Assembly (NCBI RefSeq): GCF_000275845.1 | Contig: NW_006766894.1 | Coordinates: 542,353 to 558,480, forward strand | Length of the DNA: 16,128 nucleotides | Direction of reading: 5' to 3' | Origin: Dichomitus squalens LYAD-421 SS1 | Taxonomy: Eukaryota; Basidiomycota; Agaricomycetes; Polyporales; Polyporaceae | Part shown: in pieces, positions 4,291 to 15,751 of the stretch | Numbering within the stretch: position 1 is the stretch's first letter | How the letters are laid out: the number at the start of each line of letters is the position of its first letter | The notes under the pieces: model-generated | Told to the model about the DNA's origin: nothing | What the model saw: the letters and a program-made list of their open reading frames with translations, nothing else | The model's database searches: none | Program-made: the position numbers and the translations under genes

Positions 4291-6337
4291 ATGTCTTTAT
4301 CGTCACTGTCACCTCTCGCTTCTTTGTTACCTCCAGGAGTATCCGTCACCAAGGGACTAGAGCTGTTCTTCCAAGTCGTTCAAGATACGTTTACGACGAA
4401 CCTCGTAGCAGGTGAGTTTGCGAACCCTAAGATATCTATGGAGCGACACTCTCACTTACTCTTCGAATCAGCTGCAGCGGTGACATGGATGGGATACGAC
4501 ATCTGCTTGACGGTCGCTGAGGAGGTATGAGCGCCATCGTGGCCAGTGTTTTGTTCGTTTACTAACAGTGTGCAAATCAGGTTGAACTCGTTTGGAGGTG
4601 AATCACTAATGGCATGCGGGTACAGTTGTTAGCCCTTAGTCTTACATGTCTGCACGCCACCGCAGGGCAAGATGGACGTTATCCAAGTTTCTGTACATTG
4701 GTGTCAGGTATTATGGCTTTGCAGCGGCATTGTGAGTCGCGTCACTGGTTCACATCGACGTCTATGTTTGGCTCATTATTCAAAGGTTCTATTTCGTAGG
4801 TGAGGCATGTCGGAGAATGTCTGGACTGGACTGTCGTTGAACCCCCTGCCGTAGTGAACACAAGCATGTCAGTACCCTTTCAGGTAAGTCAAATGGTTTG
4901 CCTGGGGCGTCTAGTGAATCTTACATGCGTGTTATAAGCTGTAAGCCGAATCGTTTGCGTCTCTGAAGCTACCATCGTCGTTGATATCACTTTCGAGATG
5001 CCGTGGTTGGGGCTACTACGGAGCGTTGTGAGTAAACTTCATCAGGCTAGTTCATGACTGCATACTGATCGATGGTGTATGCAGCGGCGCAACGACACCT
5101 ATTGTGCTCCTGAGCGAGGCATCATTCCTCCTACGCATATGGGTAGCTTATGGAAAGAGCAAGAAGAGTATGTTGATCTATCCTCATACGCATATCATTG
5201 AAATGACGCTGTACTGGTCGACTCCACTAAGTCCTCGCCTTCGTTCTCGTTTGCTATATCGGTGAGTCTCACATGCACTTCCTCAGTGCGCTTTGAGCTG
5301 ACTTGGGCATAGCCGAGATCGCAGTATGCATGATTTTGACCTATCACAGCCTCGTACCTAACTCGGGGACCATCAGAGCTCTCTTGCGATCGGTATCGTA
5401 GAGGGGCGAAACTTAATTGTCTTGCAGCGTCCATCCGGTTTTCCCCTCCCCGGGTGTTTCACCACTGCCACGGTTTCTCTCAAAAATACCCTGCCGGCTT
5501 GGTGCGCCTCGCATTATATATCATGGCATTGAATATCATCTGATTTCCTCTATTGTTGTTCAGGGTCGTGACCTGTGCTACCTCCAGTACGCTTCGTTTA
5601 CTACAAGCCGTATCGAGCCGTTTCACTCACGTTTCCTGTCATAGCCTCCTATCTAGTGCTAATGATCCATCAGTTCGTCAATAGTCACGCATTCAAAGCA
5701 GAGCTGATCAGAGTACGACGTGATCCCCTTGGCGAGTGGTTTCAACTGCACAAATTAAGTCCGCTGGTATACCTGCTTGTCACGGATGGCCTTCTCTATT
5801 TCGCAATGTCAGTTGGGCACCTTCGACCTAGGTATCTCATCTGATTCTGGAGCATGCGCTGACACACTGCCTTCTGTAGGATGTTCTGTGAGTCAAGTCC
5901 TCCCTAACACGTATTTGAAGGCCAACACATGTCGGTGGGACACAGCTGCTAGCACGCTGAATATGGCCATAACCATCCACTTCAATCGCAGAGAGATTCA
6001 AGCCACGGGCGTGCCGTAAGTGCGTCGTGATTGCCTATGAGTATGTGGCTGACTAGCGTGCGGTTCATAGGGTGATTCTCGCCGTCTCCTCGATATCGGT
6101 GAGTATGGTCTCCGGTCCTCCGGCGCGAGTAGTCACAACATGCTAACGTCGATTTTCCAGGCTTCGCGCCTTACGCTCAACTTGCGTGGGGTCACCGCTC
6201 TGCAGCGCGAGAAATTCCCAAGTCAATATACCACCATGTACTTTGAGCCGGCAGACGCACCAAGAGGGGGCTCGGCTGAGGATCCCCGAGAGGCTTCGAT
6301 CGCGGACCGACCGTCTGCCACGATTGTTGATGCATAG
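4291..6337 (+). CDS. DUF6533 domain-containing seven-helix membrane protein, gene A (349 aa)
   Basis: Eighteen exons: 4291-4411, 4472-4524, 4581-4597, 4666-4731, 4786-4799, 4855-4883, 4939-4940, 4998-5027, 5085-5167, 5232-5261, 5313-5323, 5377-5501, 5564-5586, 5645-5807, 5880-5887, 5946-6015, 6071-6098, 6161-6337. All introns are GT-AG and 51-72 bp; the sum is 1050 nt, one closed frame. The DUF6533 signature lies at about residues 46-80: GYDICLT (48-54), EEVELVW (57-63), RW (66-67), LYIGVRYYG (73-81). About seven hydrophobic segments follow: roughly 40-56, 72-91, 112-133, 139-160, 194-213, 239-266 and 280-299. The last contains SRLTLNLRG (293-301), a motif typical of these proteins. A polar tail of about 48 residues ends the protein. 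The ATG was chosen from the CACCATG context and from alignment with genes B and C. The 2-nt exon 7 is required for the frame. Family function is unknown; no catalytic motif is visible. Confidence 0.88.
4939..4940 (+). other. Two-nucleotide exon (CT) of gene A
   Basis: The exon ending at 4883 is in phase 0 (Phe-Gln) and the exon starting at 4998 must supply only the third base of a codon (A|TGC CGT GGT). The only way to link them with canonical sites is acceptor AG at 4937-4938, exon CT, donor GTAAGC at 4941. This gives CT|A = Leu101 before Cys102. Flanking introns are 55 and 57 bp, normal for this gene. Reading past CT gives CTG TAA, a stop. Confidence 0.75.
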
Positions 6338-7104: not shown

Positions 7105-7641
7105 ATGTCTCTCTCCTCGTTGTCCCCTCTCGCTGCATTGTTACCTCCGGGGGTGTCTAATACTGTCTATTATTGACTCACATAGGATGTTCTGTAAGTT
7201 GAGCTTCTTCTCAAATGGGGTACACGGTTAACATACAAGATCGCGTGCAGCTGCCAGCACCCTGAACATGGCAATCACTATTCATTTCAATCGCAGATAG
7301 ATCGGAGCCTGAGTCCAAGCCGTGGGTGTACCGTACGTGCGCCGCAGGTATCGCTGGTGAGCGCGCAACTAATCAGGAAATCATGAGTGGGTGATTCTCG
7401 CAATTGCCTCTGTCTCTGTTAGTATCCCTCGATTCTCCTATGTATGTCAAGCGTGACAGGGTGATGGTCATCTCTCAGGCTTCGCGCCTCGTACTCAACC
7501 TGCGCGGAGCTACCGGTAAACAGCAGTTCTAAAGTGACCAAACCACGATCCGGTTCGAGCTCCAAAACCTAGCCAAGGGTCGATCAGCTGAGGCAAGCTG
7601 GGGAAGGTCCACCCCGATCCTCTGCCACTGTGCACGTGTAG
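7105..7641 (+). pseudogene. DUF6533 pseudogene 1, internal deletion (exon 1 joined to exon 15)
   Basis: ATG at 7105 opens a frame beginning MSLSSLSPLAALLPPGVS, nearly identical to gene A, and stops at 7174-7176. Immediately after comes AG|GATGTTCT|GTAAGT (exon 7186-7193), the counterpart of gene A's 8-nt exon 15. Counterparts of exon 16 (from 7251, in-frame TAG after CGC AGA), exon 17 (about 7390-7417) and exon 18 (from 7479, in-frame TAA at 7530) follow. Exon-18 homology runs on to a TAG at 7639-7641, matching gene A's stop. Exons 2-14 are missing as one block. The intron that gene A has between exons 16 and 17 is still visible, though its acceptor is damaged. Clearly non-functional as a DUF6533 protein; a short peptide could still be made. 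Confidence 0.85.
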
Positions 7642-9470: not shown

Positions 9471-11416
9471 ATGTCGCTCACCTCTTTGTTGCCTCCTGGA
9501 CTATCGCTCCTTCAGGGTATAGAGCTCTTCATTCAGCTAATTGGGGACACGACTGTGGTGAATAGGGCGGCAGGTCGGTATCGTATACTTTCATGAGTAA
9601 CCACTGCCTGAGCACCAGCGGGTTTGACAGCCGCAGCGTCCACGTGGCTGGCTTACGACATATGTCTCACCCTAGCCGAGGAGGTATACGATATTTTGAA
9701 TGCTTCTGATTGATGATTTCTAACCATCCGTTCAATGATTAGGTCGAACTTGTGTGGAAGTGAGTACCTAGAACATATGAGCTCGGTAATGCTGGAATTG
9801 ACCTTTCCTGTCCAGGGCACGATGGTCACTTCCCAAAGTTCTATACTTCCTTGTGAGGTACTACGCTCTCTCAACCTCTCTGTGCGTCTTTCGTCCTATG
9901 CATTCACTGCCGCACATTCTCACTGCCCTCGGTGCAGGTTATACCTATCGGGTAAGCTGTGAGGACACTCTCAAAAAAGTTGAGTGCTCAACGTCCGTTC
10001 AGTCAATTCCAGCCCTGATCCCCCATTTGGAGTAAGCAACCTCGGCTCGATGAATAACTACGCAGCTCACTCTTCTTGAACCGTCTGGACTGGGTGCTAG
10101 ATGTAAGCTCGCTTCTGCCCGCAGTATCCGAATGATGCACTCCGAACTAAAGGGCTTGTCTGCAGATGCCGCGGATGGCCCTGGTTCGAGGCATTGTGCG
10201 TGGCCTTCGTGTCGATATTGAGGACATCTTCTGAGAACAGGCGCAACAGTGCTATCGAATCTTTAAATTTCTTTAGCGAAGGCATGTTCGTCCTCAGACT
10301 CTGGGCTGCGTACCGAGAGAACAGATACGGTCAGCCGTCCCACACGGTTGGTTCGGCGCGAGGACTAACCCGAAGTGTATATATCGTCCGCAGCGCGGGC
10401 TCTCATCGCATTCTGCTACACTGGTGAGTCACGGACCATTTCAAGCTAGACGAAGTGCTCACAGGGGTACAGCGGAAATTGCCGTGGGTGGAATTCCTGC
10501 GATGCGAAGGGTACTACTGATGTCAGACGTATGCAGGCGGCGATCCCCATAAGCGTTGTGGAGGCTCGCCTAATCACAATACTGCCGCGCCCAGCGAACT
10601 TCCCCCTACCTGGATGTTACACCCTCGCGAGTGTACCTCTCAGGAAATCCCTTGCCTCATGGGTTGTCAACTGTACGGTCGCAAGTGTGTCGTTGTCCTA
10701 CCTCTTCATCCGATAGCCAAGCTACTATCTGCTGAGTCCCCCCTGTGCATAGCGACGTTTTTCGCCTTGATGCTATACAAATTCTTCACCGGCGACGCGT
10801 TTAAGCTTGAGCTGTCCGAAGCCAAGCGCAACCCGCTGGCCAAGTGGACAGAAGTGCGCCGTTTCAGTCCTTTGCTCTACCTGCTGCTCCGAGATGGAAC
10901 GGCATACTTTGCAATGTATGTCTCATCCCTCTTCGTTTGAAGTGCTTCCTGACTCGGAGCTGACCGGGGATCTGACAGGATATTCCGTAAGTACTCACGA
11001 TATCCCGCGCATCAACGCCATTCATTGACACCTGCCGTCCATCACTGCAGTCGTAAACGCCGTGAACATGGCGCTTTCTATTCGCGAGGAAGGCCGAGCT
11101 CTCGAAGGGATGGGCGTCGCATGGTTGGTTGCCGTCTCGTCCGTTGCTGTAAGTGACAATTCAAGATGCACTAGTTACAGCCGGAGTTCGGTGCCCATCA
11201 CTGATCACTTATCCTGACTAGTCTTCGCGGCTGCTACTGAACCTGCGCGGATTCATCAGTGGGAGCGACAACATGTCCGGGGGCAAGTCGCAGAGTACGA
11301 CGATGCGCTTCAAGGACAACACAGCAACAACGGAGAATGCTGAGCAGGGTGTTACGGTTGCCGGAGATGTAGAAGAGTGTCAGAGGCGCGACGTCGTTCC
11401 GGGACATTATGCTTGA
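9471..11416 (+). CDS. DUF6533 domain-containing seven-helix membrane protein, gene B (351 aa)
   Basis: Sixteen exons: 9471-9573, 9631-9683, 9743-9759, 9816-9881, 9938-9951, 10003-10031, 10101-10102, 10166-10195, 10241-10329, 10394-10423, 10473-10483, 10537-10684, 10753-10915, 10979-10986, 11051-11148, 11222-11416. Total 1056 nt in one closed frame. Exon lengths 2-8, 10, 11, 13 and 14 equal those of the gene A counterparts. DUF6533 signature: AYDICLTLAEEVELVW (about 42-57), ARW, then LYFLVRYYA. Later family landmarks are FPLPGCY, RDGTAYFAM and SRLLLNLRG near the last membrane segment, followed by a polar tail of about 55 residues unlike gene A's. Two gene A introns are absent: exon 12 (148 nt) equals gene A exons 12+13, and exon 15 (98 nt) equals exons 16+17. 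The intron at 10196-10240 is only 45 nt, in frame and without a stop, so retention would add 15 residues. Function unknown. Confidence 0.88.
10101..10102 (+). other. Two-nucleotide exon (AT) of gene B
   Basis: Lies between a 69-bp intron (10032-10100, ends CTAG) and a 63-bp intron (10103-10165, GTAAGC...CTGCAG). It joins GGA (phase 0) to A|TGC CGC GGA, giving AT|A = Ile95 before the conserved Cys96. Reading on from AT gives ATG TAA, a stop, so no longer exon can start at this acceptor. Confidence 0.75.
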
Positions 11417-14605: not shown

Positions 14606-15751
14606 ATGTCTCTCTCCTCGTTGTCGCCTCTGGCTTCACTACTACCCCCAGGAGTCTCCATTCTCCAGGGATTACAGCTGTTCTTTCAAGTCATTCAAGA
14701 TACATTCACGACGAACCTCGTAGCAGGTGGACAAGGCCTGGACTCTGGGCTGCTTAGTCACTCACTCGGTCGTTGTACTTAGCGGCAGCGGTCACGTGGA
14801 TTGGTTACGACATTTGTCTGACATTTGCCGACGAGGTCTGTCTGTCTCTGCTGCATTTGCATTCGTCGTTCACTGAATGGTGTCCACATCAGGTTGAGCT
14901 GATCTGGAAGTGAATCAACTCACTCTGGATCCATGCATCAGTGTCTGACTTGACGTATTCGCACGCCGGAGCAGGGCAAGGTGGACGCTGCCCAAATTTC
15001 TGTACATCGCAGTGAGATATTATGGGTTCGCAGCTGCCTTGTAAGACCACACCGTTTTGCACCCTTTTTCAGTCTATCAGTTTCACTTCGTTGCAGATTT
15101 TACTTCGTCGGTGAGACATGTCTACAGGTACATTGTAGGAATGCTTGCTCAGCACTATGCACTAGTAAACACAAGCACAGACGCGCCCTTCCAGGTGAGT
15201 ACAACCGCTTTCTAATGGTGTCAATGGAAGCCGCTAACCCGACCGTCGTCAGCTGTAAGCTTATACAGACAGGCTCCCGAGATGACCGTTATGTTAAAGC
15301 TAAATCACTACACCTAAGTTGCCGTGGCTGGGCTTACTACGAGGCATTGTGGGTAGCAAAAACGGGAATGATACACACTTACTGAACATCCCTGTATCTA
15401 GCGGTGCAACCGCAGTCATCGTGCTTCTGAGCGAAGCATTGTTCCTTCTACGCATCTGGATAGCTTACGGGAGAAACCAAAAGAGTGCGTCTCTTGGAGG
15501 ATCTACCTGGCATAATAAACGTGGTACTAATCGAGTTTGCATATGTCGGCCGCGCCAAGTCCTCGCTTTTGTTCTGGTCTGCTACGTAGGTGAGCTCGAG
15601 AGGCACTTACTTGGAAGCTTTCCAATACTGACTTGCGTGTAGCGGAGATCGCGGTGAGTGTAGGCCTGAGCAGTCGTTGTCTCTCACATAACATCCAATT
15701 CCTCAGAGCTCTCTCGCAGTCGGTATAGTTGAGGGACGAACCCATCAGTAA
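14606..15751 (+). CDS. Truncated DUF6533 membrane protein, gene C (166 aa)
   Basis: Twelve exons: 14606-14726, 14783-14835, 14893-14909, 14975-15040, 15097-15110, 15166-15194, 15253-15254, 15319-15348, 15402-15484, 15560-15589, 15643-15653, 15707-15751. The first eleven match gene A exon for exon in length (121, 53, 17, 66, 14, 29, 2, 30, 83, 30, 11). The first 18 residues are identical to gene A and the DUF6533 signature is intact (GYDICLT, EVELIW, ARW, LYIAVRYYG). In exon 12 homology holds through IVEGR, then breaks at about 15740. The frame ends three codons later (Thr-His-Gln-stop), where gene A goes on for about 185 residues. The protein would keep about four membrane segments and lose the rest. 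All splice sites and the frame are intact up to the break, so the loss is probably recent. It could be expressed as a short form or be a young pseudogene. Confidence 0.8.
15253..15254 (+). other. Two-nucleotide exon (CT) of gene C
   Basis: Between a 58-bp intron (15195-15252, ends GTCAG) and a 64-bp intron (15255-15318, GTAAGC...CTAAG). It gives CT|T = Leu101 before Cys102. Position, flanking phase and the AG|NT|GTAAGC context match genes A and B, while most of the surrounding intron sequence does not. Confidence 0.75.

Follow-up and report, generated by a model that had tools for sequence, protein, structure and literature searches.

Exons of a single nucleotide are documented as rarities in the accounts available to us, which concern APC11, VPS55 and CYP621A. 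In plants, one-nucleotide exons have been described in APC11 of Arabidopsis (PMC4674806) and in both APC11 and VPS55 (PMC8831610), and when the APC11 exon was engineered into a two-base TT form, it was included in the mRNA in Arabidopsis and mis-spliced in rice (PMC4674806). A fungal example is the one-nucleotide exon found in the CYP621A P450 genes of Fusarium, which was inferred from exon phases that could not be joined and from an interval roughly as long as two usual introns, argued from a conserved AG/N/GT signal with an intronless relative as a length marker, and confirmed by reads (PMC12940212). Amongst the basidiomycetes, the P450 genes of Phanerochaete chrysosporium are reported to contain microexons of 2–10 codons, the shortest of which is 6 bp (PMC1184071). 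We found no report of a natural two-base exon in the titles and abstract openings listed, though PMC7725694 and PMC5241210 each use a phrase for such an exon once, and the matches listed for microexons in Agaricomycetes, mushrooms and fungi included nothing on an exon of two bases.

The genes we describe here belong to the DUF6533 family, which includes SNB1 of Coprinopsis cinerea (Agaricomycetes), a predicted seven-helix membrane protein required for fruiting-body patterning (PMC10949477), and the domain is also listed in PMC8955403. In the SNB1 paper the word 'intron' is absent and 'exon' is used twice, both times in the methods for guide design, and the passages available to us contain no description of a micro-exon (PMC10949477). 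The DUF6533 genes of Dichomitus squalens resemble CYP621A in being fungal and in the manner in which the exon can be inferred and argued, from exon phases and interval length to the conserved signal and the length marker (PMC12940212), and they resemble plant APC11 and VPS55 in having a putatively constitutive exon far below the usual size, canonical introns on either side, and relatives with intron loss (PMC4674806, PMC8831610). They also share with the Phanerochaete P450 genes a basidiomycete host, an abundance of small introns and the presence of very short exons (PMC1184071). However, the plant cases concern one base in one or two genes (PMC4674806, PMC8831610) and CYP621A one base, always G, in a single gene followed through its orthologs in the ascomycete genus Fusarium (PMC12940212), whereas the predicted DUF6533 exon has two varying bases and recurs in dozens of paralogs in one genome. 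The kind of exon is already known through the one-base exons of plants and Fusarium; what appears to be new is that a natural exon of two bases, variable in sequence, should recur in dozens of genes within a single genome.

A probable two-nucleotide exon in genes A, B and C

The window we analysed is a stretch of 16,128 nucleotides of D. squalens DNA which includes three genes, A, B and C, of a large family of DUF6533 (PF20151) membrane proteins, and in each of these a constitutive exon of two nucleotides very probably provides the first two bases of one codon. All of the features given here are on the forward strand. The upstream exon of gene A (4855..4883, 29 nt, ...SVPFQ) ends in phase 0 after codon 100, and is followed by a phase-0 intron (4884..4938, 55 nt, GTAAGT...AAG), the two-nucleotide exon CT (4939..4940), a phase-2 intron (4941..4997, 57 nt, GTAAGC...GAG) and the downstream exon (4998..5027, 30 nt, A/TGC CGT GGT TGG), with CT and the next base A making the codon CTA (Leu). 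The same arrangement is seen in gene B, where the upstream exon (10003..10031) ends after codon 94 and the phase-0 intron (10032..10100, 69 nt), the exon AT (10101..10102) and the phase-2 intron (10103..10165, 63 nt) lead to a downstream exon (10166..10195) beginning A/TGC CGC GGA TGG, making ATA (Ile). Gene C has an upstream exon at 15166..15194, a phase-0 intron at 15195..15252 (58 nt), the exon CT at 15253..15254, a phase-2 intron at 15255..15318 (64 nt) and a downstream exon at 15319..15348 (T/TGC CGT GGC TGG), making CTT (Leu).

Much of this had been proposed in an earlier note made from the sequence, and the signals AG/CT/GTAAGC at 4939-4940, AG/AT/GTAAGC at 10101-10102 and AG/CT/GTAAGC at 15253-15254 are all present as it described. 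The lengths it gave for the flanking introns (55/57, 69/63 and 58/64 bp in A, B and C) are also correct, as are the phase-0 close of the upstream exon after 100 codons in A and 94 in B, the single leftover base ahead of TGC at the start of the downstream exon, and the NTG TAA encountered on reading past the two bases. Route enumeration agrees with the note that just one two-base exon is possible from the conserved donor in each of the three genes.

We compared these with two further members of the A–C clade, D (L065), which is on the same contig but outside the window, and E (L066) from another contig; protein identity amongst A–E is 47–84%, with A and C sharing 84%. The gene models obtained by spliced alignment have 17 exons for A, 15 for B and 12 for C (the final residues of A and B are outside the models), and intron positions agree across A–E, with A and E each having two more than B and D. 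When scored against PF20151 the A, B and E proteins gave 49.6, 57.4 and 63.8 bits and two more family proteins 53.5 and 50.9 bits, placing five of the five scored proteins above the curated cut-off of 24.1 bits (C and D were outside the scored set). The alignment of gene C to the other genes ends at 15742, and because homology is lost beyond this position the 3' part of the gene is seemingly missing.

Genes A–E also contain further very short exons of 8, 11, 14 and 17 nt. These include an 8-nt exon in gene A (5880-5887) which has a same-size exon in B, D and E, and an 11-nt exon (5313-5323) which has a counterpart in B, C, D and E. Elsewhere in the window, 7105-7164 contains a 20-residue match to the N-terminus of gene A which we regard as a degenerate copy fragment, and by eye the longer interval of 7105-7560 has pieces like later gene A exons, as in a degenerate gene-A-like copy. 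A neighbouring gene on the minus strand (about 1261-2571) has two PF14327 pieces (hinge domain, cleavage stimulation factor subunit 2), and an Rfam scan of the window produced no match at the gathering threshold.

The earlier note had also claimed that no alternative AG would give the right phase, and this is false. Enumeration of GT-AG routes with introns of at least 40 nt identified open in-frame routes by a single intron from the same donor, with acceptors at 4968 in A, 10124 in B, and 15259 and 15268 in C. Genes A, B and C alone are therefore insufficient, and the case rests on the wider family. At the matching place D has AG/AT/GTAAGC and E has AG/TT/GTCAGT, and in neither gene did the enumeration find a route by a single GT-AG intron starting at the conserved donor, though E offers from this donor another possible exon of two bases (TC) and one of 14 nt. 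The two-base exon is the sole route common to A–E, and was picked in 61 of 64 runs when these genes were subjected to spliced alignment using paralog queries with the residue masked or deleted and two intron penalties. Between A and C, identity is 57% and 56% in the two flanking introns (59% and 59% when shuffled) and 78% in exons 1–11. As the introns are no closer than shuffled sequences and the exons are at 78%, the surviving signal points to selection, as the earlier note had suggested.

Distribution of the predicted exon in the DUF6533 family

The 40.3 Mb D. squalens assembly has at least 150 scored PF20151 matches among 204 candidates, and these are numerous on contigs such as C14, C2, C32, C43 and C72. 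Our sample of 66 loci (60 of them distinct) was non-random and came from the 30 best PF20151 matches, 16 regions which were mostly around gene A matches or on the same contigs, and 20 loci from the next part of the list. Pairwise-query spliced alignment misplaced the micro-exon in many loci, and for this reason profiles were used instead; with profiles as the guide, a two-base exon was called at 39 of 60 loci and raised the score over routes lacking it at 37 of the 60, by more than 5 units at 29, and two loci (L015 and L031) had a better profile alignment score without the exon.

As the profiles were partly trained on two-base-exon models, and are to that extent circular, we applied a fixed rule needing no residue match at the micro-exon (the start frame and the downstream anchor still come from the profile alignment). 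The rule requires a phase-0 donor, an intron of 40–75 nt, an exon of X nt, a second intron of 40–75 nt, a phase-2 acceptor, and a frame open to the next donor, and was applied to a set of 61 loci made up of A–E and 56 other DUF6533 loci, with L018, L030, L093 and L094 left out, being without an anchor. An exon of X = 2 fits 56 of the 61 loci, the exceptions being L010, L013, L028, L036 and L086, whereas exons of 5, 8, 11, 14, 17, 20 and 23 nt fit 8, 5, 7, 8, 3, 1 and 2 of the same 61. The difference was maintained at a splice-site score of at least 3 (44 loci for X = 2 versus 1, 3, 1, 4, 1, 1 and 1 for the lengths from 5 to 23 nt) and of at least 4 (30 versus 0, 2, 1, 1, 0, 0 and 0). A strict version of the rule, with a minimum tail of 40 nt and GAG barred, gave X = 2 in 42 of the 61 loci and other lengths in no more than 3, though it misses A, B, C and E and takes the wrong second acceptor in D.

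Shuffling the intervals (200 times per locus for the 56 loci) gave a fit in 9.1% of cases, equivalent to 5.1 of the 56 loci expected; as these shuffles leave the two outer splice sites unchanged, their scope is narrower than that of the search, and it is the other exon lengths which provide the like-for-like control. Splice scores are low for some of the 56 fits, which may be chance matches, and the failure of the direct join to keep the frame at all 56 loci is a consequence of the rule and has no evidential weight. An ultra-short exon of 1–2 nt between complete GT-AG introns of normal size can be placed in A–E and in 56 of the 61 loci overall, and its place is conserved in these 56 paralogous loci despite the divergence of the introns; the upstream exon has a median pairwise identity of 33% among the paralogous loci.

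Eight loci from lower in the list were added after the rule had been fixed, six of which were testable (L105 and L106 are without an anchor). An exon of X = 2 fits four of the six (L107, L109, L110 and L111, with no fit for L104 and L108), and lengths of 5, 14, 17 and 20 nt fit one locus each. By direct reading the exon is also present in L105 (AT), L106 (AG) and L108 (AG), the last of which has a second intron of 79 nt that is beyond the upper limit of the rule.

In a tree of the family the exon is found on both sides of the deepest drawn split (midpoint root, support 85/94); we claim no order of intron gain or loss as the tree is built on only 88 columns, with 25 of its 56 inner branches open. 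A tblastn search found no relative among 293 pattern matches in prokaryotic contigs and 43 in viral contigs. The feature described in the earlier note is real, and its micro-exon interpretation stands in so far as the paralogs have the two-nucleotide exon as their common route. The note overstated how unique this route is within each gene and understated the spread of the exon, which is not special to three genes but widespread in the DUF6533 genes of this genome.

Anatomy of the predicted exon and its introns

The exon dinucleotides in the 56 loci are AG (27), GA (7), GG (6), CT, CG and AT (3 each), AC and CA (2 each), and TC, AA and TT (1 each). There is little constraint on the residue they would encode (Ser, Gly, Glu, Asp, Arg, Leu and Ile are among those seen), and it is the place and length of the predicted exon which are conserved. 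The residue after the split codon is Cys in 33 of the 56 best fits. A subfamily with an AG exon (L016, L022, L023, L026, L038, L084, L088 and L103) has Ala or Val in place of the Cys of most other clades. In a subfamily ending FSALRSYAL the residue at this position is other than Cys.

The introns on either side are GT-AG introns of 47–70 nt, with medians of 54 and 56 nt, and the whole interval is 100–139 nt; the ordinary introns of A–E (n = 61) are 41–77 nt long, with a median of 57 nt. Motifs resembling a branch point are present in 59% and 55% of the first and second flanking introns, as compared to 41% and 54% in two ordinary intron sets and 21–23% in shuffles. The donor after the micro-exon has a mean score of 0.69, versus 2.46 for the upstream donor and 1.4 for the donor of the next intron, and scores 1.89, 0.77 and 0.03 when 0, 1 and 2 of the exon bases match A-G (Spearman -0.43, p 0.001, 56 loci, uncorrected for relatedness). 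This compensation, with relatedness left uncorrected, fits U1 reading the exon and intron bases jointly.

Four paralogs have one intron only at this place. Only the first, phase-0 intron is found in L028 and L104, where the codon is whole (GCG and AGA, respectively) and is followed by Cys; only the second, phase-2 intron is found in L086 and L093, where the codon is again whole (AAA in both) and followed by Cys. These paralogs are natural length markers which, on our reading of the loci, put one codon between the first intron and Cys.

In the arrangement we propose, the exon would lie between a phase-0 intron and a phase-2 intron, both of them ordinary GT-AG introns, which would be removed in turn with each recognised across the intron, and either order would be workable. 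Removal in turn is expected because the first acceptor is only two bases from the second donor and would be overlapped by U1 bound there. Short introns in fungi are mostly recognised across the intron. The earlier note had seen a challenge to exon definition in an exon this short, but this is the wrong frame: exon definition is not relevant as both flanking introns are ordinary short introns of this kind.

Alternative explanations

A single longer intron might run from the upstream donor to an acceptor inside what we regard as the second intron, adding a short gene-specific peptide and leaving no micro-exon. Such in-frame routes from the same donor exist in A, B and C and in 23 of the 56 loci overall, yet none is available in D, E and 33 of the 56, the peptides that would be added vary in length and sequence across the loci, even between A and C with their 84% protein identity, and the excess of AG/NN/GT would be left unexplained. 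We consider this very unlikely, and the in-frame acceptors further along in A, B and C were dropped as a real route because D, E and most of the family loci are without one. An even more improbable suggestion is that the genes are pseudogenes with a genuine frame break; gene C, which is without its 3' part, would be in keeping with this, but A, B, D and E are open across 15–17 exons, with matching intron positions and 47–83% protein identity.

Two further readings have hardly any probability. In the first, one intron with non-canonical ends would cover the whole interval of 100–139 nt, the frame being kept by a donor or acceptor two bases off GT or AG and the internal AG/NN/GT being a matter of chance. 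Such an intron would be roughly double the size of the others (41–77 nt in A–E), dozens of genes would have to use donors other than GT or acceptors other than AG, and the reading explains neither the fit of 2 nt at 56 of 61 loci compared to 1 to 8 for other lengths nor the paralogs with either intron alone. Equally remote is stepwise removal that leaves no base behind, either by recursive splicing at a zero-length exon (a ratchet point, AG/GT) or from a stwintron. The two introns are almost back to back and their removal in turn is likely, and to this extent the recursive splicing raised as a possibility in the earlier note agrees with our reading; in its strict zero-length sense it fails as two bases must remain in the mRNA. 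A zero-length site is excluded by the frame, which would be broken, and by the two bases present between AG and GT, and a stwintron by the paralogs in which one or the other intron is complete on its own (L028 and L104; L086 and L093), with neither inside a splice site of the other.

The micro-exon is, in our view, the best explanation. What we could demonstrate at the level of the sequence is that the place of the putative exon is common to diverged paralogs, that the two-base fit is in excess of both chance and other exon lengths, and that the one-intron states have a whole codon; the exon is best read as old within the DUF6533 family of this genome.

Significance

These genes are a test of minimum exon size, and suggest that two bases of nearly any sequence may suffice for an exon and that such an exon may persist through a large gene radiation, in which the median pairwise identity is 33%. 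The paralogs are replicate natural variants in which the order of intron removal, the use by U1 of the exon bases at -2/-1, and splice sites which overlap in space might be investigated. Gene finders unable to place a two-base exon would misread these DUF6533 genes at the split codon, and the Pfam model (46 positions) may end shortly before the micro-exon because of genes misread in this way.

We lean towards the view, with some reserve, that the two-base exon is ancestral to DUF6533 and would be found throughout the mushroom-forming fungi, with many gene models wrong from this codon on. If this is true, the DUF6533 genes would offer a natural series of two-base exons with varied bases and donor strengths, and the spliceosome would always be working in turn at two mutually exclusive sites.
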